Shown here: in pieces, positions 45,822-57,147 of the stretch
How positions within the stretch are numbered: position 1 is the first letter of the stretch
Layout of the letters: every line of letters begins with the position of its first letter
Source: an uncultured Lachnospiraceae bacterium
GTDB taxonomy: Bacteria; Bacillota; Clostridia; Lachnospirales; Lachnospiraceae
Assembly: GCA_947246015.1 (NCBI GenBank)
Contig: CAMXQE010000020.1
Span: 1 to 64,000, forward strand
Direction of reading: 5' to 3'
Length of the DNA stretch: 64,000 nt
The notes under the pieces: model-generated
Databases searched by the model: none
The model's input: only the letters and a program-made list of their open reading frames with translations
What the model was told of the DNA's origin: nothing
Translations under genes and position numbers: made by a program

Positions 45822-45918
45822 TGCCTTCCCCTCCCTTCTTTTTCCATTTCCATGGATATGGTATGCGGTACCGGCTGTCCATGATTCCGGTACCCTTTAT
45901 TGCAGAATAGATATTCAT
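45766..45918 (-). CDS. Possible 50-aa protein, competing frame
   Basis: MNIYSAIKGTGIMDSRYRIPYPWKWKKKGG... starting in an ATGA overlap with the coiled-coil gene. Its last third overlaps the TTG-start gene in another frame, so only one may be real; the first 30 residues, Trp/Lys-rich, look more protein-like than the rest. Confidence 0.35.
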   Translation of the reverse strand: MNIYSAIKGTGIMDSRYRIPYPWKWKKKGGEGIGCHSGVPVRDVQGKGGR

Positions 45919-46172
45919 ATCTTCTTCTGAATGAAATATTTGCATGTTTCTCCCGCTTTTCGGCTTTTAAACCTGCTTCCGGCTACACAGTGGCCGTCAC
46001 AGGTTACGGCATATACCGTTCCGCATTTAACATAATGCTGTATAAAATTACCGCAGTATTCACAGTTCTTTGGCAATTCCGCGCGGTCACTGTAACGCTC
46101 CTGAAGCTCTTCCAGCTGTGCCTTTAAGGAATTGTTTTCATATTCCAGTTCTTTTACTTTGTCTGCCAGCAT
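45915..46172 (-). CDS. First gene of the leftward early operon: coiled-coil Cys protein, 85 aa
   Basis: MLADKVKELEYENNSLKAQLEELQERY forms a coiled coil; the second half has CEYCGNFIQHY, CGTVY and CDGHC, a probable zinc site. ATG at 46172 follows AGGGAGGAAAAGAC. Promoter at 46256-46284 lies just upstream, so this is the first product after induction. Role unknown. Confidence 0.65.
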   Translation of the reverse strand: MLADKVKELEYENNSLKAQLEELQERYSDRAELPKNCEYCGNFIQHYVKCGTVYAVTCDGHCVAGSRFKSRKAGETCKYFIQKKI

Positions 46173-46229
46173 TGTCTTTTCCTCCCTAATTGTGATAAAA
46201 TAAAATATTATTATTATTTTCAATGTTTT

Positions 46230-46246
46230 ACGTAGCTTAACTTCGT
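46230..46246. promoter_or_regulatory. Operator 1 of the early switch
   Basis: 17-bp dyad ACGtAGcTtAaCTtCGT. A near-identical site (46263-46279) lies 33 bp away, three helical turns. Between them is the -10 of the early promoter. Confidence 0.7.
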
Positions 46247-46255
46247 ATTTTCTTT

Positions 46256-46284
46256 ATTATATACGTAGCTTAGCTTCGTGTCAA
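46256..46284 (-). promoter_or_regulatory. Early leftward promoter with operator 2 in its spacer
   Basis: Minus strand TTGACA (46284-46279), 17 bp, TATAAT (46261-46256), a perfect consensus promoter. Operator 2 (46263-46279, ACGTAGCTTAGCTTCGT) fills the spacer, so a bound repressor would block it. Drives the early operon from 46172 leftwards. The rightward XRE gene at 46303 is divergent. Confidence 0.82.
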
Positions 46285-46302
46285 CACTTTTAGGAGGTTT
46301 CC

Positions 46303-46503
46303 ATGAAGTTTAATGAACGTTTAAAAGCCGAACGCAAATCCCATAAATATACCCAGCAATATGTTGCCAATGAAATAGGTGTAACCTTACGGGCATATCA
46401 GCAATATGAACAGGGTAAATATGAACCCAATATTGAAAAATTAATTAAATTAGCAAATTTATTTGGTATTACTGTTGATTTCCTTATCTGTCGTGAGGAA
46501 TAA
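46303..46503 (+). CDS. XRE-family repressor (Cro/CI-like), 66 aa
   Basis: Single HTH_3 domain: MKFNERLKAERKSHKYTQQYVANEIGVTLRAYQQYEQGKYEPNIEKLIKLANLF. RBS AGGAGG. Divergent from the early operon across the two 17-bp dyads, so it is the natural candidate to bind them. No clear own promoter was found; the spacer operators would also control it. Its end overlaps the convergent XRE gene by 45 bp. Confidence 0.85.
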   Translation: MKFNERLKAERKSHKYTQQYVANEIGVTLRAYQQYEQGKYEPNIEKLIKLANLFGITVDFLICREE

Positions 46504-46686
46504 TTCCCGCAGTTTTCTTTGATGTATTCCAAATAAATCCTCTAATTTATCCCAATGCTCTATTTTCCCTTGGTAATCACCCGATTCTATCTGCTGATAA
46601 GCCCTAACTGTTATTCCAAGATATTCCGCCATCTGCTGTTGTGTCATGCCTGCCTTTTGGCGGGCTTCTTTCAGGTTCTTTCTCAT
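46459..46686 (-). CDS. XRE-family regulator, 75 aa
   Basis: MRKNLKEARQKAGMTQQQMAEYLGITVRAYQQIESGDYQGKIEHWDKLEDLFGI, HTH_3 domain followed by a short tail. Convergent with and overlapping the repressor at 46303 by 45 bp. RBS ATAGGAAATG is weak. The first 19 codons are duplicated at 47578-47635. Possibly a Cro-type counterpart read from the leftward transcript starting near 50.3 kb. Confidence 0.8.
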   Translation of the reverse strand: MRKNLKEARQKAGMTQQQMAEYLGITVRAYQQIESGDYQGKIEHWDKLEDLFGIHQRKLRELFLTTDKEINSNTK

Positions 46687-46817
46687 TTCCTATTTCTCTC
46701 CTTCTTACAGGAACCTTTCCAGCTCCCCGTTCCTGCCGAGGCTTTCCTTTGCAAAACGCCTCTGTTTTTCTCACTTTTCGGAAAAGTGTTCCCACTGTAT
46801 ATTGCCGCTAAATTTTC

Positions 46818-46899
46818 TTGCCCCTCTCACCTTCCTGTCCTATACTGAATGCACAGGCTGCGCCAACAGCCGAGTACACAAGAAAGGAGAATGGTCACT
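46818..46899 (+). promoter_or_regulatory. Promoter-hairpin cassette, copy 1
   Basis: TTGCCC (46818-46823), 17 bp, TATACT (46841-46846), then four bases and the dyad GCAC-a-GGCTG-cgccaa-CAGCC-ga-GTAC (46851-46877), then AAAGGAGA and the ATG at 46900. Same layout as copies at 47752, 48436 and 49191. Preceded by CACTTTTCGGAAAAGTG (46772-46788), which recurs partly ahead of copy 3. Confidence 0.8.
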
Positions 46900-47082
46900 A
46901 TGGATTACAACAAATTACGCTATGATTTGGCATTGCAGACCGCCACAATACGGTTCATGAAAAATGGAAAACTCGACGCAAGCATAACTGATTCCGAGGA
47001 GCTTTTGGGAATATTCGCAGTATGCTATAAAGAAGCCCGTTCAATATCTGACCAAACAATCAGGGATTATCTTCGAGACTAG
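46900..47082 (+). CDS. Accessory gene of cassette 1, 60 aa
   Basis: MDYNKLRYDLALQTATIRFMKNGKLDASITDSEELLGIFAVCYKEARSISDQTIRDYL. Soluble, helical, unknown family. ATG chosen for its ten-base distance from AAAGGAG; an upstream in-frame ATG is too close. Its last 23 bp overlap the convergent gene at 47060. It has its own promoter, typical of a prophage moron. Confidence 0.65.
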   Translation: MDYNKLRYDLALQTATIRFMKNGKLDASITDSEELLGIFAVCYKEARSISDQTIRDYLRD

Positions 47083-47245
47083 GCAGTACCATCCGCCTTG
47101 CCTGACGCATTAAATCAGCGCTCACGGACTGTTTACGCATTGTGATGTAATGTACAAACAGTCCGAAATCCTCATGCGTCATCCCTTTGTCAACGCATTT
47201 CTCATACACCTTATCAGCGAAAGACTTTATTTTTTCTGCTTTCAT
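47060..47245 (-). CDS. Small protein of the leftward accessory set, 61 aa
   Basis: MKAEKIKSFADKVYEKCVDKGMTHEDFGLFVHYITMRKQSVSADLMRQA. Helical, basic, no recognised family. Weak RBS GGGTGAG. Convergent overlap with the cassette 1 gene. Confidence 0.55.
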   Translation of the reverse strand: MKAEKIKSFADKVYEKCVDKGMTHEDFGLFVHYITMRKQSVSADLMRQARRMVLPSLEDNP

Positions 47246-47379
47246 ACTTATCTCACCCATTTCTCCTTCTTCTCCGTATTCATGAAATATACTGATATGT
47301 TAAAAATCTGACCGATTTTTATTTCAATGTCTACAACAGTGCAAAAATTCAAATTGAACACCATTAGGAACAATACAGA

Positions 47380-47496
47380 TTAAATTTTTTCTTGTGCGGC
47401 TACCGAATCGATTTCACTTAAAGTGGCTTCAAGTACCCACCTGCAGTCACACACAGAAAAACCATATGTTTTCAGAAGTTCTATCACCTCAAACAT
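47380..47496 (-). CDS. Small protein, 38 aa
   Basis: MFEVIELLKTYGFSVCDCRWVLEATLSEIDSVAA... behind AAAAAGG, reminiscent of short phage helix proteins (V---L---G-S------A). It overlaps the 25-aa gene above by 13 bp. The adjoining stretch 47246-47379 carries no gene. Confidence 0.5.
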   Translation of the reverse strand: MFEVIELLKTYGFSVCDCRWVLEATLSEIDSVAAQEKI

Positions 47497-47561
47497 TGCC
47501 TTTTTTCCGATTCATCCAAACTCTTTCCCTTGATGCTTATTGGTTCAAATCCAAAAATCAT
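47484..47561 (-). CDS. Very small peptide, 25 aa
   Basis: MIFGFEPISIKGKSLDESEKR... behind the excellent RBS AGGAGGTGAGAGC. Its ATG overlaps the stop of the XRE fragment (ATGA) and its end overlaps the 38-aa gene. May act mainly as a translational coupler. Confidence 0.4.
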   Translation of the reverse strand: MIFGFEPISIKGKSLDESEKRQCLR

Positions 47562-47635
47562 GCTCTCACCTCCTCCTGCATCTGCTGCTGTGTCATGCCT
47601 GCCTTTTGGCGGGCTTCTCTCAGGTTCTTTCTCAT
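47558..47635 (-). pseudogene. Truncated duplicate of the XRE regulator start, 25 aa
   Basis: Reads MRKNLREARQKAGMTQQQM and then stops after six unrelated residues. The first 19 residues match the regulator at 46459-46686 at all but one position, and the DNA is nearly identical, so it is a recent partial duplication lacking the recognition helix. Confidence 0.75.
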
Positions 47636-47651
47636 TTTCTGTTCCTTTCTG

Positions 47652-47751
47652 TCCGGTACCCTTCATGCAGCGCACGGCTTTTCACCGTGCACCACTATAC
47701 GAAAGAAGGTTCTGGCCCTGCGGTGCCATGCACCGCATGAAAGGTACCGGA
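47652..47751. repeat. 100-bp element with 17-bp inverted ends
   Basis: TCCGGTACC-c-TTCATGC (47652-47668) pairs with GCATGAA-a-GGTACCGGA (47735-47751). Inside are two more hairpins, GCACGG / CCGTGC (47672-47690) and GCGGTGC-cat-GCACCGC (47720-47736). It ends exactly where the -35 of cassette 2 begins. Could be a MITE-like insertion, a strong terminator-like block or a structured RNA; no ORF inside. Confidence 0.7.
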
Positions 47752-47831
47752 TTGTTTTTTCCTTGTTTCCCCCTTATAATGCTGGTACAGGCTGTTGCCG
47801 CAGCCTAGTACGAAAGAAAGGAGAATCGCCT
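47752..47831 (+). promoter_or_regulatory. Promoter-hairpin cassette, copy 2
   Basis: TTGTTT (47752-47757), 17 bp, TATAAT (47775-47780), four bases, GTAC-a-GGCTG-ttgccg-CAGCC-ta-GTAC (47785-47811), GAAAGAAAGGAGA, ATG at 47832. Confidence 0.82.
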
Positions 47832-48092
47832 ATGTTTTTCTTGCCTGCTCCGGTGGGAATGCTTTTTTCTGATTTCCCTACAGAAGTATCCATGTACACT
47901 ATTTCCGGCTCACATACCTGTAAAGGCTTTTACGACAACATGGAAAAATACATTGTTTTTCCCCTAAATGACTGTCCGGAAATTGTAAAAGGAACTGAAA
48001 TCAAATCCCAGGATGGTTCTGTTTTTGTTGCAAAAAGCATTGAGACCGGCGGAATGGGCACCAAGGCTGATGCACTGGTAGTCCATGTTTAA
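47832..48092 (+). CDS. Accessory gene of cassette 2, 86 aa
   Basis: MFFLPAPVGMLFSDFPTEVSMYTISGSHTC, then FPLNDCPEIVKGTEIKSQDGSVFVAKSIETGGMGTKADALVV. Beta-rich, no recognised family, no clear signal peptide although the first ten residues are hydrophobic. Ends 17 bp before the convergent gene at 48110. Confidence 0.6.
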   Translation: MFFLPAPVGMLFSDFPTEVSMYTISGSHTCKGFYDNMEKYIVFPLNDCPEIVKGTEIKSQDGSVFVAKSIETGGMGTKADALVVHV

Positions 48093-48109
48093 CTATCAGC
48101 TGGCCGTTA

Positions 48110-48349
48110 TCATTCTGCGGCCAGCTGCTTTATTTCATCCTGTACTGCAGTGCCATATCTCATCTTATTTCCCAAATTAATGTATGCAGATTTCGATAAC
48201 TGGGCGAAACTCCCTAATATCTCCAGTATATTTCCTTCTGTCCGCTCCGCATCTATGGAAAAACAAAATTCACACTTTGAGCCATCAGTTAAAGTTTTCG
48301 AATATCTTATTTCTGCTTTTTTGGCATTATCAGCAAAATTTATTCCCAT
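48110..48349 (-). CDS. Small protein of the leftward accessory set, 79 aa
   Basis: MGINFADNAKKAEIRYSKTLTDGSKCEFCFSIDAERTEGNILEILGSFAQLSKSAYINLG. Soluble, one CxxC. RBS GAGAAGGAAG. Unknown function, conserved look. Confidence 0.6.
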   Translation of the reverse strand: MGINFADNAKKAEIRYSKTLTDGSKCEFCFSIDAERTEGNILEILGSFAQLSKSAYINLGNKMRYGTAVQDEIKQLAAE

Positions 48350-48435
48350 TTTCTTCCTTCTCCTTTATCAGACAATTTTTAATTTCGGAAAAGTGTTCCC
48401 ACTATATAAAGCCTCCACCATGCAGTTTATCAGCG

Positions 48436-48517
48436 TTGTCTTTTCCCACCATCCCCCTTATACTGTTTGTACAGGCACCCGCCAGTGCCGAGTACATATG
48501 AAAGGGGGACTTTATAT
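48436..48517 (+). promoter_or_regulatory. Promoter-hairpin cassette, copy 3
   Basis: TTGTCT (48436-48441), 17 bp, TATACT (48459-48464), four bases, GTAC-a-GGCAC-ccgcca-GTGCC-ga-GTAC (48469-48495), GAAAGGGGGA, ATG at 48518. A 21-bp match to sequence ahead of copy 1 lies upstream at 48383-48403. Confidence 0.82.
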
Positions 48518-48739
48518 ATGGCACAAATGTTTCGTATTGACTTATCCTCGCTCCCTACCCATAAAGAGCGCTATGAGGTTCGTAATATCCTTGATTGTCA
48601 TGGCTTCGATATCAGTGAACATTGGATATCTATAGATGAAACACACAAAACCATTGATTATCTTCAGGCATTTTGGGGTTATACATCCTCACCCAAATTC
48701 CCTGTACTTCCAAAAGAAGTCAAAATCACTTCTTTATAA
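48518..48739 (+). CDS. Accessory gene of cassette 3, 73 aa
   Basis: MAQMFRIDLSSLPTHKERYEVRNILDCHGFDISEHWISIDETHKTIDYLQAFWG. Mixed alpha/beta, unknown family. Overlaps the convergent gene at 48726 by 14 bp. Confidence 0.6.
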   Translation: MAQMFRIDLSSLPTHKERYEVRNILDCHGFDISEHWISIDETHKTIDYLQAFWGYTSSPKFPVLPKEVKITSL

Positions 48740-48947
48740 CTCTTGTGACAATATATGGAAAGCCCGCTTCGTAATCGATAATAATGCGGGCTTTTCTTAC
48801 CCCGTCCGATTCACATTTTAATATGGCATCAATTCCTAATACTCTTCTCATATTTCCTGTATTTCCGGATATCCAAAAGCCTTTTCTGACTTTTTTATTT
48901 GAAATTCCAAAGTGCCCCAATACCTCCTGAACCTCTTTTTCTTCCAT
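48726..48947 (-). CDS. Small protein of the leftward accessory set, 73 aa
   Basis: MEEKEVQEVLGHFGISNKKVRKGFWISGNTGNMRRVLGIDAILKCESDGVRKARIIIDYEAGFPYIVTRVI. ATG at 48947 sits nine bases after GGGAGG. A GTG at 48965 is possible but less likely. Unknown function. Confidence 0.55.
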   Translation of the reverse strand: MEEKEVQEVLGHFGISNKKVRKGFWISGNTGNMRRVLGIDAILKCESDGVRKARIIIDYEAGFPYIVTRVIKK

Positions 48948-48954
48948 ACCTTCT

Positions 48955-49128
48955 TTACCTCCCACCTAAGTCTGCTTCAAGGTATGCATCCCTGATTGAT
49001 TTTTTAGCCAAATTAATCATATCCTCTACATATTTATCAATTATGTTTAACGTTACTTTCGAAGATATATTGCAGCAGATTACAGAAACGATAGTTGCTG
49101 TAACTGCTGCCACTATAGCCGTTTGCAT
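48955..49128 (-). CDS. Small membrane protein, 57 aa
   Basis: N-terminal hydrophobic helix MQTAIVAAVTATIVSVICC, then a polar tail with MINLAKKSIRDAYLEADLGG. RBS GGGGAGAGGTGAG. Lies just above the 73-aa gene in the same leftward transcript. Confidence 0.55.
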   Translation of the reverse strand: MQTAIVAAVTATIVSVICCNISSKVTLNIIDKYVEDMINLAKKSIRDAYLEADLGGR

Positions 49129-49190
49129 TTTTTCTCACCTCTCCCCTGTTGTGCTGTTTTCGTTTTTCCCATTAATCGTTCCATTTGTCC

Positions 49191-49270
49191 TTGCCTTTTC
49201 TCCCCATCCCCTCTTATACTGTATGTACAGGCACCCGCCAGTGCCGAGTACGAAAGAAAGGGGGATTTCT
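49191..49270 (+). promoter_or_regulatory. Promoter-hairpin cassette, copy 4
   Basis: TTGCCT (49191-49196), 18 bp, TATACT (49215-49220), four bases, GTAC-a-GGCAC-ccgcca-GTGCC-ga-GTAC (49225-49251), GAAAGAAAGGGGGA, ATG at 49271. Hairpin identical to copy 3. Confidence 0.82.
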
Positions 49271-49468
49271 ATGTCTGATTACATTCCTGAACCCACAATA
49301 AAAACTGTTTGTAAAGATAGCCGATATAATTTCAAACTAGTCATTTATGCTTACCGCAAACTTTCACATTCAGAGGCTAATTTCATATATCAGCAATATC
49401 TTTCCGAAAACCACTTAAAATGTCCGCCACGCGACAAAACTGTTATTGTCAAAAAGTTTCTTGAATAG
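49271..49468 (+). CDS. Accessory gene of cassette 4, 65 aa
   Basis: MSDYIPEPTIKTVCKDSRYNFKLVIYAYRKLSHSEANFIYQQYLSENHLKCPP. Soluble, unknown family. Overlaps the convergent gene at 49449 by 20 bp. Confidence 0.6.
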   Translation: MSDYIPEPTIKTVCKDSRYNFKLVIYAYRKLSHSEANFIYQQYLSENHLKCPPRDKTVIVKKFLE

Positions 49469-49661
49469 TTTCTTTTAACACTTTAATAAAATGCCATGCT
49501 TCCTGTGCCCCACGTAACGATATGCAACCATCGTTGCCGGGGCGTATCGCAATTATTTTCTTTTTCAAATCAAGTTCTATGCACCATAATGTTTTCATTT
49601 TCTTTATTTCTTCCAAATCTACTTCTGGTACCTTCTCTGACAGTTCTATTGCACTTTCCAC
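49449..49661 (-). CDS. Small protein, GTG start, 70 aa
   Basis: Reads ESAIELSEKVPEVDLEEIKKMKTLWCIELDLKKKIIAIRPGNDGCISLRGAQEAWHFIKVLKE. GTG at 49661 behind GAGAGGCGAG. Unknown function; leftward accessory set. Confidence 0.55.
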   Translation of the reverse strand: MESAIELSEKVPEVDLEEIKKMKTLWCIELDLKKKIIAIRPGNDGCISLRGAQEAWHFIKVLKETIQETF

Positions 49662-49712
49662 TTTCTCGCCTCTCTTTTCCCATTATGATAAGGAATGCAC
49701 TCGTTTCTAATC

Positions 49713-50051
49713 CTAAACAGAAACCTTTTGATGTCTTTTATATTCACGGGGTTCTAATTTTTCACATACAGCAGAGAAGTTTTCATGGTTCACTATTCTG
49801 TTTATGTCCCCCTCTATCTCTGCCAGTACAGCAACGATTAACCCAATATGCATTTTCTGGCCATATTCTTTCACTGTTTTAAGAACCTCATTATATAAAA
49901 TATCACGCTCATTTAATTCTCCCATCCTTCTCACATCCTTCTTTTCATGACTTTTTTCCCATAAAGAGCGAAATGATTTCTTTCTTTTTTCATCAACTTC
50001 CCGCTGCCATGCAGTATTTCCTGTTAGACTGTATGCATTTCCTTCTTTCAT
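49713..50051 (-). CDS. Protein of the leftward accessory set, up to 112 aa
   Basis: The second part, from MGELNERDILYNEVLKTVKEYG at 49925 (behind GAAGG), looks like a compact helical protein with GLIVAVLAEIEGDINRIVN; the first 42 residues are basic and may be a separate or non-coding lead. Both starts are possible. No family recognised. Confidence 0.5.
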   Translation of the reverse strand: MKEGNAYSLTGNTAWQREVDEKRKKSFRSLWEKSHEKKDVRRMGELNERDILYNEVLKTVKEYGQKMHIGLIVAVLAEIEGDINRIVNHENFSAVCEKLEPREYKRHQKVSV

Positions 50052-50075
50052 CTCTTCACCATTTCTATCCGCCTC

Positions 50076-50261
50076 TTATTCGCTTGCAGCTTCCAACTTT
50101 ATATCCGTTCCACATGCCCTTGCCATCCCAATAACAATCCCGATGTTTACCCCGCTTTGAAACTTCAGGAGACCTTCCATGAACTCTTCATCCGTTTCTG
50201 CCAGTGCTTTTCCTATCTCCATCAAATTCTTTTTATCCTTTGCAGTTACCATCACCGACAT
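50076..50261 (-). CDS. First gene of the leftward accessory transcript, 61 aa
   Basis: MSVMVTAKDKKNLMEIGKALAETDEEFMEGLLKFQSGVNIGIVIGMARACG. ATG at 50261 behind GAGGTGAAC. The promoter at 50308-50336 lies just upstream, so this is the first product of that transcript. Helical; function unknown. Confidence 0.6.
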   Translation of the reverse strand: MSVMVTAKDKKNLMEIGKALAETDEEFMEGLLKFQSGVNIGIVIGMARACGTDIKLEAASE

Positions 50262-50307
50262 AATGTTCACCTCACTTTCCAATTACGTTTTATCGCTTTG
50301 TATTATT

Positions 50308-50336
50308 AAAATACTACATAGAAGTATTTTTGTCAA
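50308..50336 (-). promoter_or_regulatory. Leftward promoter with operator dyad
   Basis: Minus strand TTGACA (50336-50331), 17 bp, TATTTT (50313-50308). The spacer is covered by the inverted repeat AAAATACT / AGTATTTT (50308-50330), a likely binding site of the divergent cI-like regulator. Confidence 0.7.
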
Positions 50337-50344
50337 TATTTTTT

Positions 50345-50375
50345 TATTGCAATGCAATATTTTTTATGTTATATT
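50345..50375 (+). promoter_or_regulatory. Promoter of the cI-like gene with palindromic operator
   Basis: TTGCAA (50347-50352), 17 bp, TATATT (50370-50375). The -35 lies inside the perfect 15-bp palindrome TATTGCAATGCAATA (50345-50359), fit for autoregulation. Confidence 0.72.
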
Positions 50376-50394
50376 CCATTTAGGAGGTGATACT

Positions 50395-50805
50395 TTGGAA
50401 AATATAGGTGAAAGAATTAAATTAATCAGGCGACACCTAAACTTAAACCAAACAGAATTTGGCTTACCAATAGGCTTAAAGCAGGCTACTGTTGGGCAAA
50501 TGGAAAATGGTTCCCGCAACGTTACAGAACGTTCCATCATTTTTATTTGTGAAAAATATAATATAAACGAAACATGGCTTCGCACAGGTGAAGGAAATAT
50601 GTTCGTAGAACTTCCTCCTGAAGATGAAGTAGCTGCCGCTATATCAGAGGTTCTAGAAGATATAGAGTGTAAAAACGCCATGTATACCCTGATTAAAGAA
50701 TTTTTAATTAACTACCAAAAAAGCGATACAAAAACAAAAAATGCACTGGATACATACCTGAATAATGTATTGAATGGATACAAAAAAAGAAAAGAAGGCA
50801 ATTAA
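50395..50805 (+). CDS. CI-like XRE repressor, 136 aa
   Basis: HTH_3 domain at the N-terminus (IGERIKLIRRHLNLNQTEFGLPIGLKQATVGQMENGSRNVT), then INETWLRTGEGNMF, a phrase common in phage repressors, and an acidic helical C-terminus without a LexA-type protease domain. The TTG start at 50395 follows TTAGGAGGTG. It lies divergent to the leftward operon with dyads between them, so it is the best candidate for the maintenance repressor. The ImmA/IrrE peptidase at 53324 could be its inactivator. Confidence 0.85.
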   Translation: MENIGERIKLIRRHLNLNQTEFGLPIGLKQATVGQMENGSRNVTERSIIFICEKYNINETWLRTGEGNMFVELPPEDEVAAAISEVLEDIECKNAMYTLIKEFLINYQKSDTKTKNALDTYLNNVLNGYKKRKEGN

Positions 50806-50817
50806 ACCTTCTTTTTT
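50792..50817 (+). terminator. Terminator of the cI-like gene
   Basis: AAGAAGG - caattaaa - CCTTCTT followed by TTTT, overlapping the stop codon. Confidence 0.78.
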
Positions 50818-50819
50818 CT

Positions 50820-50848
50820 TTGACATTTTATCCCACATTTTTTATACT
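50820..50848 (+). promoter_or_regulatory. Promoter of the DUF4041/GIY-YIG gene
   Basis: TTGACA (50820-50825), 17 bp, TATACT (50843-50848), 37 bases ahead of the ATG. The gene is thus independent of the repressor transcript. Confidence 0.78.
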
Positions 50849-50884
50849 ATACAATAATCTAATATAAGAAAGGGGATTCTATTT

Positions 50885-52300
50885 ATGGATAATAATTTAG
50901 ACAAAAAAATCATTTCTAAATTTTTTCTCCGCACATGGTTCATTGGAATTGTATTTGCTTTATCTGCTCTTCATCCAATATTTTTTATTGCCGGTTCCAT
51001 TCTTGCATTTATTCAACACATACTTTTTAAACCTTATATTGAAAAATATGGAAAATGTGAAGATATAGATACTAATCTAGAATATCTAGAAAAAGAGCAC
51101 AAAGGACACCTGAAAAAGCTTGATGAAGATTATGAACAGTATCGCCAAGAATTACAAGATTCTTACTCCGTCTCTGCCCAACAAATTGAGCAGGAAAAAG
51201 AAAGTCTTCGCAAAGTCCTGAACGAACTCAATGATAAAATAGAGAGTACTAGAAACGAATTGGAGAATCTTCAGGCAGAAGTCATTGTTGAACACTACAA
51301 ATTTTCTGATTACGACGGACTTGCCTCCGAAGACTGTAAAAATAAACTTGCTTTACTAAAAAATGAAGAACAGGATTTTATTAAATCCGGCAAAGCACTT
51401 GCTCTTCATTCTGACAAACCTAAAAAAATAACCAACGATTACTCAAAACAAATACTTCGTTGCTTTAATTCTGAATGTGATAATGTGTTAATCAATTTAT
51501 CATCAAAAAATATTGACAATATGAGAAGCAAAATAATGAAATCATTTGAAACAATAAACAAAATATTTGCTGTAAATGAAATTTCAATTCAGAAAAAATT
51601 ATTAGAATTAAAATTAGAAGAACTGAATTTAGTTTATACTTATGAGGTAAAAAAGGAGCAGGAACGCGAATTACAAAAAGCCATAAAAGAACAAATGATT
51701 GAAGAAGAAAAAGTCCGACGCGAAATCGAAGCCCAAAAAGCTAAAATAGAAAAAGATTTGATGCAATGTTCCAAAGAAATAAACAAGCTCATGACGTATT
51801 TACAAAAATCTCAAAATGACACTGAAAAACAACTATATATTGATAAAATCAAAGAATTAGAAGAAAAAATAAAAGAATTAGAACAATCAAAATCATCAGT
51901 TCTTGAAAGGGAGATGAATGCAAAAGCCGGCTTTGTCTACATAATTTCCAATATAGGTTCCTTTGGTGATAATGTATATAAAATAGGTATGACAAGACGC
52001 TTGGAACCAATGGACCGTATCAAAGAATTAAGCAGTGCATCTGTTCCTTTTGAATTCGATGTTCATGCAATGATTTTTTCCGACGACGCTCCTTCTCTTG
52101 AAACAGCACTCCACCAGCATTTTGAAAAGCAAAGTGTAAACCGAGTTAATCTACGTAAAGAATTTTTTAAAGTTTCTTTAGATGAAATTGAACAGATTGT
52201 AAAAGATAACTTCAATAATACAGTTGAATTTACAAAAATACCAGTTGCAAAGGAATATCGACAAACACTGAGTATTCTGAACTCTGAACAAGTTTCTTAA
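50885..52300 (+). CDS. Membrane-anchored DUF4041 / GIY-YIG-like (T5orf172) protein
   Basis: 471 aa. Residues 13-47 hold one or two membrane helices; 55-130 and 255-345 are long coiled coils (Lys/Glu-rich); between them is a DUF4041-like region (FSDYDGLASEDCKNKLALLKNEEQDFI). The C-terminal 115 residues are a T5orf172/Mug113 GIY-YIG module: GFVYIISNIGSFGDNVYKIGMTRRLEPMDRIKELSSASVP with the paired Tyr and catalytic-type Arg, then LETALHQHFEKQSVNRVN. Much more A+T-rich than the structural genes. Own promoter and terminator; placed beside the repressor, so probably expressed in the lysogen, perhaps as phage exclusion. Function unproven. Confidence 0.82.
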   Translation: MDNNLDKKIISKFFLRTWFIGIVFALSALHPIFFIAGSILAFIQHILFKPYIEKYGKCEDIDTNLEYLEKEHKGHLKKLDEDYEQYRQELQDSYSVSAQQIEQEKESLRKVLNELNDKIESTRNELENLQAEVIVEHYKFSDYDGLASEDCKNKLALLKNEEQDFIKSGKALALHSDKPKKITNDYSKQILRCFNSECDNVLINLSSKNIDNMRSKIMKSFETINKIFAVNEISIQKKLLELKLEELNLVYTYEVKKEQERELQKAIKEQMIEEEKVRREIEAQKAKIEKDLMQCSKEINKLMTYLQKSQNDTEKQLYIDKIKELEEKIKELEQSKSSVLEREMNAKAGFVYIISNIGSFGDNVYKIGMTRRLEPMDRIKELSSASVPFEFDVHAMIFSDDAPSLETALHQHFEKQSVNRVNLRKEFFKVSLDEIEQIVKDNFNNTVEFTKIPVAKEYRQTLSILNSEQVS

Positions 52301-55548: not shown

Positions 55549-57147
55549 ATGAAACAGAACCAGCCACCACAATACTGCGCCTACCTGCGCAAAAGCCGCG
55601 CGGACCGCGACGCCGAACTGCGCGGGGAAGGGGATACGCTCGCACGCCATAAAAGGCTCCTGGCGGAACTCTCCGCCAAGATGAAACTCCCCATCCGGAA
55701 GTTTTATGCCGAAGTGGTTTCCGGCGACACCATCGCCGACCGCCCCGTCATGCAGGAACTCCTCCGTGACGTGGAGGCCGGACTGTGGGCAGGCGTCTTT
55801 GTCGTGGAAGTGGAAAGGCTTGCCCGCGGCAACACGCGCGACCAGGGAATCGTCTCCGACCACTTCAAGTACTCCGGCACGAAAATCATAACCCCAATCA
55901 AAACGTATGACCCGGAAAACGAGTTCGATGAGGAATATTTTGAATTCGGTCTTTTCATGGCACGGAGGGAATACAAAACCATCAACCGCCGTCTCCAGCG
56001 CGGCCGCATCGCATCCGTGAAGGAAGGGAAATACATATCCAGCACCGCGCCCTACGGCTATAAGCGGGTCAGGGTACAGGACGGGAAAGGATATACGCTT
56101 GAATTTGAGGAAAAAGAAGCAGAAGCGGTCCGCATGGTTTTTGACTGGTACTGCAACGGAGTCATCCTCGAAGACGGGAGCCATGTGCGGCTCGGCGCCG
56201 ACGGCATCGCCCGCCGTCTTGATTCCCTCGGCATCCGTCCCCGGATATCATCCCACTGGTCAAGGGCCACCATCAGGGATATGCTCCAAAATCCCACCTA
56301 CTGCGGGGACGTGCGCTTCGGATACCGTGCATGTGTGAAGGACATCCGGGACAGCAGGGTCACGCAGTCACGCAGAACCAATGAGAACTGCCAGTTCAAT
56401 CCCGGAATCCATCCTGCCATTATCAGCCGTGAACTCTTTCAAAGGGCACAGGAAATAAAGACCGAGAACCGGAAATATACGGTTCCTTCCCCCACTGCCC
56501 TGCAGAATCCCCTTTCCGGCCTTATATACTGCAAAAAATGCGGCTCGATGATGACTCGGCTCGCGCCCAACAGCCGCAACAGGTATGCCACGCTCAAATG
56601 TCCGAATAAGTACTGTGGCAATGTTTCTTCCCCCATTTTTCTTATTGAGGAACAGATTATCTCCTTCCTGGAAGAATGGCTGGAAGATTACCAGGTTGTC
56701 CCACAGCCTTCCGACTACAGTTCCCCCGTTGACAGGGAAATCGAACGGCTCGAAGCTTCCATCAACAGCACCGACGCCGAACTTGCAAAACTGCATGGCC
56801 AGCTTGACAGAACCTTTTCCCTGCTGGAACAGGGAATCTATACACCGGAAATCTTTCAAAAAAGGCAGCACTCACTAAACCATGAAATAGAAGGGCTGAC
56901 ACAGCTAAGTGAAAAATATAAGATAGAGCTGGAAAAGTATGAGGAATTAAAGTATTCCGACGAGCAGTTTGTACCACGTATCATCCGTCTGCTTGAAGTG
57001 TATCCTTCCAGTGGCCCCGCGGCCAAAAACGAACTCCTTAAGGAAGTCATCGACCGGATTGAATACCTTAAGGAGCAGCCAAACCGCCGCGGCGGGCTTA
57101 ATAATGCAAGTTTCGAACTGACCATACACCCAAAACTTTCCCACTAA
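55549..57147 (+). CDS. int: Large serine recombinase (integrase)
   Basis: 532 aa. Catalytic domain residues 8-150: YLRKSRADRD with nucleophile Ser16, VSGDTIADRPVMQELL, ERLARG. Recombinase domain about 165-290 (APYGYKRVRV, ATIRDMLQNPTYCGDVRFG), zinc ribbon about 325-356 (CKKCGSMM, CPNKYCG), coiled coil about 395-465 for synapsis control, C-terminal tail. It catalyses attP x attB insertion; excision would need a directionality factor. The stop lies 16 bp before attR, and the reconstructed attP is dyad-symmetric as these enzymes require. Confidence 0.96.
   Translation: MKQNQPPQYCAYLRKSRADRDAELRGEGDTLARHKRLLAELSAKMKLPIRKFYAEVVSGDTIADRPVMQELLRDVEAGLWAGVFVVEVERLARGNTRDQGIVSDHFKYSGTKIITPIKTYDPENEFDEEYFEFGLFMARREYKTINRRLQRGRIASVKEGKYISSTAPYGYKRVRVQDGKGYTLEFEEKEAEAVRMVFDWYCNGVILEDGSHVRLGADGIARRLDSLGIRPRISSHWSRATIRDMLQNPTYCGDVRFGYRACVKDIRDSRVTQSRRTNENCQFNPGIHPAIISRELFQRAQEIKTENRKYTVPSPTALQNPLSGLIYCKKCGSMMTRLAPNSRNRYATLKCPNKYCGNVSSPIFLIEEQIISFLEEWLEDYQVVPQPSDYSSPVDREIERLEASINSTDAELAKLHGQLDRTFSLLEQGIYTPEIFQKRQHSLNHEIEGLTQLSEKYKIELEKYEELKYSDEQFVPRIIRLLEVYPSSGPAAKNELLKEVIDRIEYLKEQPNRRGGLNNASFELTIHPKLSH

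Follow-up and report, generated by a model that had tools for sequence, protein, structure and literature searches.

Why should one promoter and one hairpin recur in front of small genes that do not resemble one another? The question is raised by a 64,000-nucleotide stretch of DNA from an uncultured Lachnospiraceae bacterium (assembly GCA_947246015.1, contig CAMXQE010000020.1, positions 1 to 64,000 of the forward strand; hereafter, the window), in which a promoter-hairpin cassette occurs four times. We assign a probability of about one half to the reading that the cassette provides a conserved mRNA 5' leader, which would be read by a common factor and would act as a common post-transcriptional handle on genes of the lysogenic phase.

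The initial annotation described each of the four sites as a promoter, four bases, a dyad, a Shine-Dalgarno (SD) sequence and an ATG, and all of these are present. The promoters, all on the plus strand, read TTGCCC-17-TATACT (46818-46846), TTGTTT-17-TATAAT (47752-47780), TTGTCT-17-TATACT (48436-48464) and TTGCCT-18-TATACT (49191-49220). The hairpin elements follow on the same strand at 46851-46877, 47785-47811, 48469-48495 and 49225-49251, with the 27 bases of elements 3 and 4 being identical, and the ATG codons lie behind purine-rich SD sequences at 46900, 47832, 48518 and 49271. All four elements are found both by a covariance model and by the pattern GTACNGGCN10GCCNNGTAC. With up to two mismatches allowed, this pattern has four matches in the window, compared with 0.13 expected from dinucleotide shuffles; copy 1 deviates by one mismatch, GCAC replacing the first GTAC. 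The promoters were recognized by reading the sequence, and that of cassette 1 also agrees with the consensus of 167 copies. A generic sigma-70 scan of positions 46200-50900 listed promoters 1, 3 and 4, did not list promoter 2, and found no excess of promoter-like sites (12, versus 14.6 in shuffles). Thus, it is the dyad with its fixed spacing, rather than the hexamers, that makes the cassette significant.

The motif is not restricted to this genome; the initial annotation had named such a restriction as an outcome that would refute it. We collected 168 cassettes, including those of the window, from Lachnospiraceae genomes and IMG/VR contigs; each passed a filter for pairing and matched a -10-box pattern that permitted four or five bases before the element. 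A scan of IMG/VR with GTACAGGCN10GCCNAGTAC yielded 37 stretches, 15 of which have a TATANT box just upstream, and a second pattern yielded 61, of which 14 were already known from the first. A pattern that includes the -10 box produced 36 stretches from GTDB species genomes. Fifteen of these are labeled Lachnospiraceae, ten carry the names of genera that we take to be Lachnospiraceae, and 11 have other or unspecific labels (for example, Oscillospiraceae, Eubacteriaceae, Bacillota or Bacteroidales). The Bacteroidales label of one 28,444-base contig is probably wrong. Loci L049, L068, L069, L070 and L076 each have four hairpin matches within a few kilobases.

A covariance-model search, of the kind suggested at the outset, was run with a model, R1, based on alignment A1 (86 of 117 dereplicated copies, hand-picked for variety), and it also found the element in other genomes. 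At E <= 0.001, the element is present in 22 of 200 genomes sampled from the window's family (its own included), in 3 of 291 from the class (its own, another of the family and one of a different family) and in 2 of 199 from the phylum (its own and one other). The two copies outside the family seem genuine by eye. One region was taken from each positive genome of these samples (23 regions); some of these genomes have further copies on other contigs. In the source assembly itself (3.93 Mb, 83.75% complete), R1 found no copy beyond the four of the window at E <= 1, and a looser pattern found seven extra places, each with two mismatches, versus ten for a reversed control pattern. BLAST searches against named phages returned no records for the region, none for protein 2 and three for one cassette, namely a Klebsiella phage and two phage records of human-faecal origin that lack annotation. 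A search of plasmids with one cassette returned no records.

The geometry of the cassette is nearly constant. Six loci (L023, L024, L035, L037, L044 and L047) were dropped by eye from 127 rows as chance matches, and the element begins four bases past the -10 box in 119 of the 121 copies that remained, with two to six bases being allowed except in 36 GTDB stretches, where the pattern itself fixed the spacing at four. The distance from the end of the element to the start codon is 20 nt (quartiles 19-21). The -35 box contains TTG in 139 of 167 copies, and the spacer, which is 17 bp long in 146 of 167, is 84% pyrimidine, compared with 57% at 216 other TTG...TATAMT sites of the same loci. Leaders are alike among copies over the whole stretch from the -35 box to the SD sequence. 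The A seven bases past the -10 box is the probable start of transcription (predicted near A46853 for element 1), and a start there would place the hairpin at the very 5' end of the mRNA. A location after the -10 box and before the SD sequence fits a role as the 5' untranslated region of the downstream gene.

The outermost pair, 1/27, was considered as a sign of an earlier start and set aside; two search patterns fixed G1 and C27, and in the subset collected with these bases unfixed the pair is weak (19 of 56 Watson-Crick, versus 12.2 in shuffles). The GTAC ends that the initial annotation gave for the dyad are too strict as a general description, as the first and last bases vary in copies that were collected without fixing them.

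Pairing and loop conservation in the hairpin

Does the dyad act as RNA or as a DNA operator? Selection for pairing had been claimed from the four window copies, and it is borne out by 138 copies gathered without a pairing filter (spacing fixed at four bases, length fixed to that of the 5-bp class), in which pairing at three stem positions exceeds that of shuffles. Pair 10/17 is formed in 135 of the 138 copies (shuffled mean 55.7, maximum 74) with columns that hold only about 0.1 bit each, pair 9/18 in 136 (mean 85.6, maximum 99) and pair 8/19 in all 138 (mean 125.5, maximum 131). Alignment A1 contains 94 cells changed on both sides, versus 28 in shuffles, and has a covariation score of 0.311, versus 0.072; these covariation counts handle relatedness solely by removing near-identical leaders. 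Its paired cells amount to 96.6%, and slid structures reach at most 42.4%. Rare copies vary even the GGC/GCC part in step (GGGTA/TACCC, GGATA/TATCC and GGTAT/ATACC), and both 4-bp and 5-bp stems occur. Covariation of the kind expected for a cis-acting structured RNA leader is therefore present in three of five A1 measures, in the rare stem variants and in the pairing of the 138 copies.

The stem encloses a hexaloop, Y-Y-G-C-M-R. G13 and C14 are each found in 125 of the 138 copies (1.4 bits each), at positions that no search pattern fixed. At the two ends of the loop, C.A or U.G is present in 127 of 138 copies, versus 85.8 in shuffles, with C.A being the commonest combination at 11/16 (99 of 138).

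These features bear on the possibility that a dimeric repressor binds the dyad as DNA. The dyad does lie over the expected start site, and genes resembling helix-turn-helix (HTH) repressors are nearby. An operator or stoperator of a phage repressor is one symmetric sequence per phage, recognized by that repressor, whereas the stem arms differ within 24 of 43 loci that have multiple cassettes. Moreover, symmetric stem positions pair although their sequence is unconstrained, the flanks are asymmetric (A versus RA), and the stretch between them is 17 rather than 19 nt in 19 of the 168 copies. We consider a DNA operator quite improbable, and the choice between RNA and operator that the initial annotation had left is largely decided for RNA by pairing without sequence conservation and by stem arms that vary within loci. 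The dyad fits an RNA hairpin in which the loop and flanks would be read and the stem must merely pair, unlike a sequence-specific DNA operator.

The main rival accepts the RNA hairpin and dispenses with a specific ligand. As a passive 5' stabilizer, a terminal stem-loop plus a strong SD sequence would shield short mRNAs from 5' decay. The hairpin is located at the predicted 5' end, has a median fold energy of -8.2 kcal/mol and is followed by an SD sequence at a nearly fixed distance, all of which suit this role. However, such a stabilizer would not need a conserved loop, so that the 1.4 bits at G13 and at C14 are left unexplained, and in three of the four window copies the minimum-energy fold leaves nucleotides 1 to 3 unpaired. 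Among 5' stabilizer leaders, no conserved family whose loop is invariant is known to us. Precedents for passive stabilization do exist; in the accessible part of PMC3997798, the aprE and ermC leaders resemble the cassette in having a structured mRNA 5' end and/or a strong SD sequence, and they differ in that each serves single genes. We regard a passive stabilizer as possible, though doubtful.

Cassette genes, convergent partners and prophage orientation

What do the cassettes precede? The view that the cassette, rather than the gene, is conserved agrees with the 95 BLAST clusters (largest, six members) into which the proteins behind the 168 cassettes fall. The 158 closed open reading frames (ORFs) encode 25-262 aa (median 74); they were called by a simple script of our own, and some may be wrong. 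Representatives of 87 of the 95 clusters (set A2; eight very short or doubtful ORFs were omitted) match 20 Pfam families with one or two members each, including Abi_alpha, DUF2321, KTSC, DUF2513, YozE and zinc ribbons. They match 30 PHROGs families, of which 25 were listed, 23 of them without a named function; NCBIfam gave weak matches alone (best E 1.5e-4). Known domains of defense or anti-defense are represented by one Abi_alpha match (Pfam, E 2.4e-44) and one PDC-S47 match (PADLOC, E 6.3e-45), which are probably the same protein, and two other PADLOC matches are weak (E about 4e-4). An iterative profile at a permissive threshold (E < 0.02) joins 21 of 155 cassette proteins, window gene 1 among them, into a single, highly diverged group whose members are 51-86 aa long and have LAxxxA at the start.

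The cassette genes frequently run into a gene on the opposite strand, an arrangement that is absent from the initial annotation and new relative to it. The next ORF is on the opposite strand for 96 of the 158 genes. Sufficient downstream sequence was available for 143 distinct cassette genes, and 103 of these converge on an opposite-strand ORF that has an SD sequence and a 3' end that overlaps or lies within 30 bp, compared with 113 of 715 random places. The 104 convergent cassettes include 56 pairs with homologous plus genes, of which 31 also have homologous minus partners (0.53 expected); the other 25, mostly more distant pairs, do not, and in 20 further pairs the partners are homologous and the plus genes are not. 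Because plus genes and minus partners are homologous together, the unit that moves between phages is often a two-gene, tail-to-tail module composed of a repressor-direction gene and an early-direction gene. Such co-inheritance, and the similarity of copies from -35 box to SD sequence, could also mean that the cassette is a recombination linker, kept mainly because modules exchange through it. That explanation predicts identical sequence rather than compensatory stem changes, and we judge it very unlikely.

All four window cassettes show the convergent arrangement. Gene 1 (46900-47082, plus strand) encodes a tiny 60-aa protein of the LAxxxA type, recognized by sequence reading and the iterative profile, and overlaps by 23 bp a minus-strand ORF (47060-47260) that runs leftward, as early genes do. 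Gene 2 (47832-48092, plus strand; 86 aa) has cassette-borne homologues by BLAST clustering in loci L060, L062, L073 and L099 and is separated by a gap of 17 bp from its partner ORF (48110-48349, minus strand). Gene 3 (48518-48739, plus strand; 73 aa) is an ORF without a relative among the collected cassette proteins and without a Pfam or PHROGs family; the overlap with its partner ORF (48726-48965, minus strand), whose start codon is uncertain, is 14 bp. Gene 4 (49271-49468, plus strand; 65 aa) has a cassette-borne homologue in L048 (53% over 34 aa) and overlaps its partner ORF (49449-49661, minus strand) by 20 bp.

As had been proposed from the sequence, the setting is a prophage, which occupies roughly 6.7-57 kb of the window. 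Its structural and replication-type genes, with roles assigned mostly by eye, are on the minus strand, and the cassettes point rightward amid these leftward genes. Sharing their direction are an HTH repressor-like gene (50395-50805, plus strand; BLAST cluster c0), with a TTG start inferred by eye, and a recombinase-like gene, named by eye (55549-57147, plus strand; 532 aa). A protein of the T5orf172/MUG113/DUF4041 type (50885-52300) adjoins the repressor-like gene, and its L099 homologue is also beside an HTH gene. On the minus strand, a consensus match at 50308-50336 (TTGACA-17-TATTTT) is a possible leftward early promoter, and a transcript from it would possibly cross all four cassettes in antisense.

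The same orientation prevails elsewhere. Across 110 loci, 70 of 87 HTH repressor-like proteins are encoded on the strand of the nearest cassette, as are all 12 relatives of the window recombinase; in the largest non-HTH cluster (20 proteins, 20 loci), all 20 are opposite to the cassette strand. Adjacent cassettes are always on the same strand (58 of 58; median distance 692 bp), and 47 of the 58 have an opposite-strand ORF between them. Each of the 23 genomic regions has 3-18 ORFs in common with viral contigs. Set A3, which comprises 80 of the 138 large proteins listed from these regions and was not used to look for structural phage genes, includes 13 matches to a single integrase family and further matches to phage primases, polymerases and exonucleases. 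Therefore, the cassette belongs to prophages or prophage-like elements, and some of the genomic regions could be other mobile elements.

A common leader and its nearest analogues

How might a single leader serve so many genes? In the cassette, a promoter of the sigma-A type would be joined directly to a conserved RNA leader. The mRNA would begin with ACA, a stem of 4-5 bp around the YYGCMR loop, and RA-GU, and would continue with a strong SD sequence and, some 20 nt past the element, the start codon. Because cassette genes run with repressor-like genes and against early genes, they are probably expressed in lysogeny. On induction, overlapping antisense transcription from the partner's direction could turn a cassette gene off and probably silences the set. 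A common RNA-binding factor would recognize the conserved loop and flanks and thereby control translation or mRNA lifetime across the whole set. We infer lysogenic expression, this factor and the direction of its effect, and the orientation and sharing of the cassette suggest a regulon with one factor. The factor more likely belongs to the host than to the phage. No protein family was found in every one of the 14 cassette phages compared (the window plus 13 contigs), which favors a host factor or none, and a host RNA-binding protein would explain why unlike phages of one host family use the same leader.

Several observations weigh against this proposal. Pair 6/21 is formed in 136 of 138 copies and is not above shuffles (mean 134.2, maximum 136). 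Two of the five A1 measures are also at shuffle level (3 versus 3.0 pairs with two-sided changes; 11 versus 10.3 further pair types), because five of the nine pairs never vary in A1, an alignment in which search patterns fixed GGC/GCC and most of TAC/GTA. The outer AC/GU pairs occur in the minimum-energy fold of one window copy in four, and the stability of a fold can by itself, with no ligand, keep a loop conserved. The next ORF is on the same strand for 53 of the 158 cassette genes, so some may be in operons, and 17 of the 87 HTH proteins are on the strand opposite to the cassette. The protein family most common among the 14 phages is an HTH group (10 of 14), which could itself be the factor in place of a host protein; HTH proteins can bind RNA. 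Finally, the wobbles of the sense stem (13 G.U versus 9 A.C) do not settle the strand, and the frequent C.A at 11/16 would become U.G on antisense RNA.

The last point would suit a hairpin with a role in the leftward transcript, where it might serve, for instance, to process or regulate that RNA at a point between two early genes; with opposite-strand ORFs between most adjacent cassettes, that transcript should carry the complement of the element. Nevertheless, the element keeps a nearly fixed distance from the -10 box and from the start codon of the sense strand, neither of which an antisense RNA needs, and sense G.U is no rarer than A.C. An antisense role is unlikely.

A common leader may have a more specific purpose, which we put forward only tentatively. 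The modules could form an RNA-tagged regulon of defense and counter-defense in Lachnospiraceae prophages, in which one conserved RNA-binding factor reads the common hairpin on the mRNA of a lysogeny gene, and a lytic-direction partner antagonizes that gene on induction through overlapping antisense transcription and perhaps through its product. If so, the hairpin could be used as bait for hundreds of unknown genes of phage-host interaction. A common promoter and hairpin before mostly unrelated tiny genes suggests a joint control switch for a largely unknown virus-borne set. As a sequence tag, the cassette marks about 100 families of tiny genes, dissimilar to one another, in the prophages of a single bacterial family and offers a direct route to listing phage accessory genes that are invisible to homology searches. 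It also poses the question of what reads one hairpin before so many genes, and why these genes travel with an opposing early gene.

Phage morons are accessory genes that carry a promoter of their own, sit among phage operons and are missing from relatives at the same place. The cassettes likewise have their own promoter-like sequence, and their modules differ between phages; the cassettes stand apart in that one leader RNA is common to them and a convergent partner gene is inherited with them. The closest analogue that we found is carried by phages whose host phylum presumably differs from that of the cassette phages. It consists of the SAS and ESAS sequences of Cluster K mycobacteriophages, which, in the portion of PMC3203893 available, are repeated just upstream of the start codons of many different phage genes, have a partly inverted repeat and an SD-like part, are largely limited to one phage group and are of unknown function. 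That portion names no promoter at a fixed distance, and RNA pairing is, according to its authors, not generally borne out by the changes between the two ESAS arms; the cassette arms, by contrast, covary strongly, and the sequences differ. The 13-bp SAS repeat at the start codon, GGGATAGGAGCCC, was not seen in the cassette leaders, which read GTA, a few bases and an GAAAGGAG-like SD sequence (judged by reading, with no pattern search).

In the archaeal virus SIRV2, according to the available part of PMC11065993, a regulatory sequence shared by early genes was used to find anti-defense genes. It resembles the cassette in that one regulatory sequence precedes many small, mostly single, dissimilar genes. 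It differs in being an archaeal promoter with early expression, and that text mentions no RNA hairpin; the cassette orientation suggests lysogeny. The AbiF RNA motif of clostridial prophages (RF03085), as presented in the accessible portion of PMC12373285, is also a small conserved leader hairpin, bound there by a protein, and differs in being tied to abiF. RF03085 has no match in the window, nor a permissive one in 46780-49300. Rfam 15 as a whole gives no match in the window at the gathering threshold. Three permissive matches in 46780-49300 are far below the gathering score: mir-135 (47659-47744), TeloSII_ncR30 (47205-47334) and, overlapping element 3 in part, mir-4867 (48404-48481 on the minus strand, E 2). 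Searches of open-access papers, preprints excluded and partly directed at analogues, found no description of the cassette hairpin. The 3161 RNA candidates from human microbiomes in PMC8040213 may contain it.

Other repeats around the modules

A second repeat, GGAACACTTTTCC, lies between modules on the minus strand of the window (46780-46793 and 48387-48400) and also occurs in L056/L158, L057, L065, L076 and L099, with nine copies among the loci searched, although L056 and L158 are maybe one place. It is a possible operator of leftward genes. A perfect match to TTGACA-17-TATAAT on the minus strand (46256-46284) points leftward toward a gene at 45915-46223. By eye, a long inverted repeat with GGTACC ends is visible upstream of cassette 2 (about 47655-47747), and part of a small HTH gene (46459-46686) is nearly repeated (about 46630-46688 and 47580-47638). 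The near-repeat, which lies between modules 1 and 2, resembles a gene remnant.

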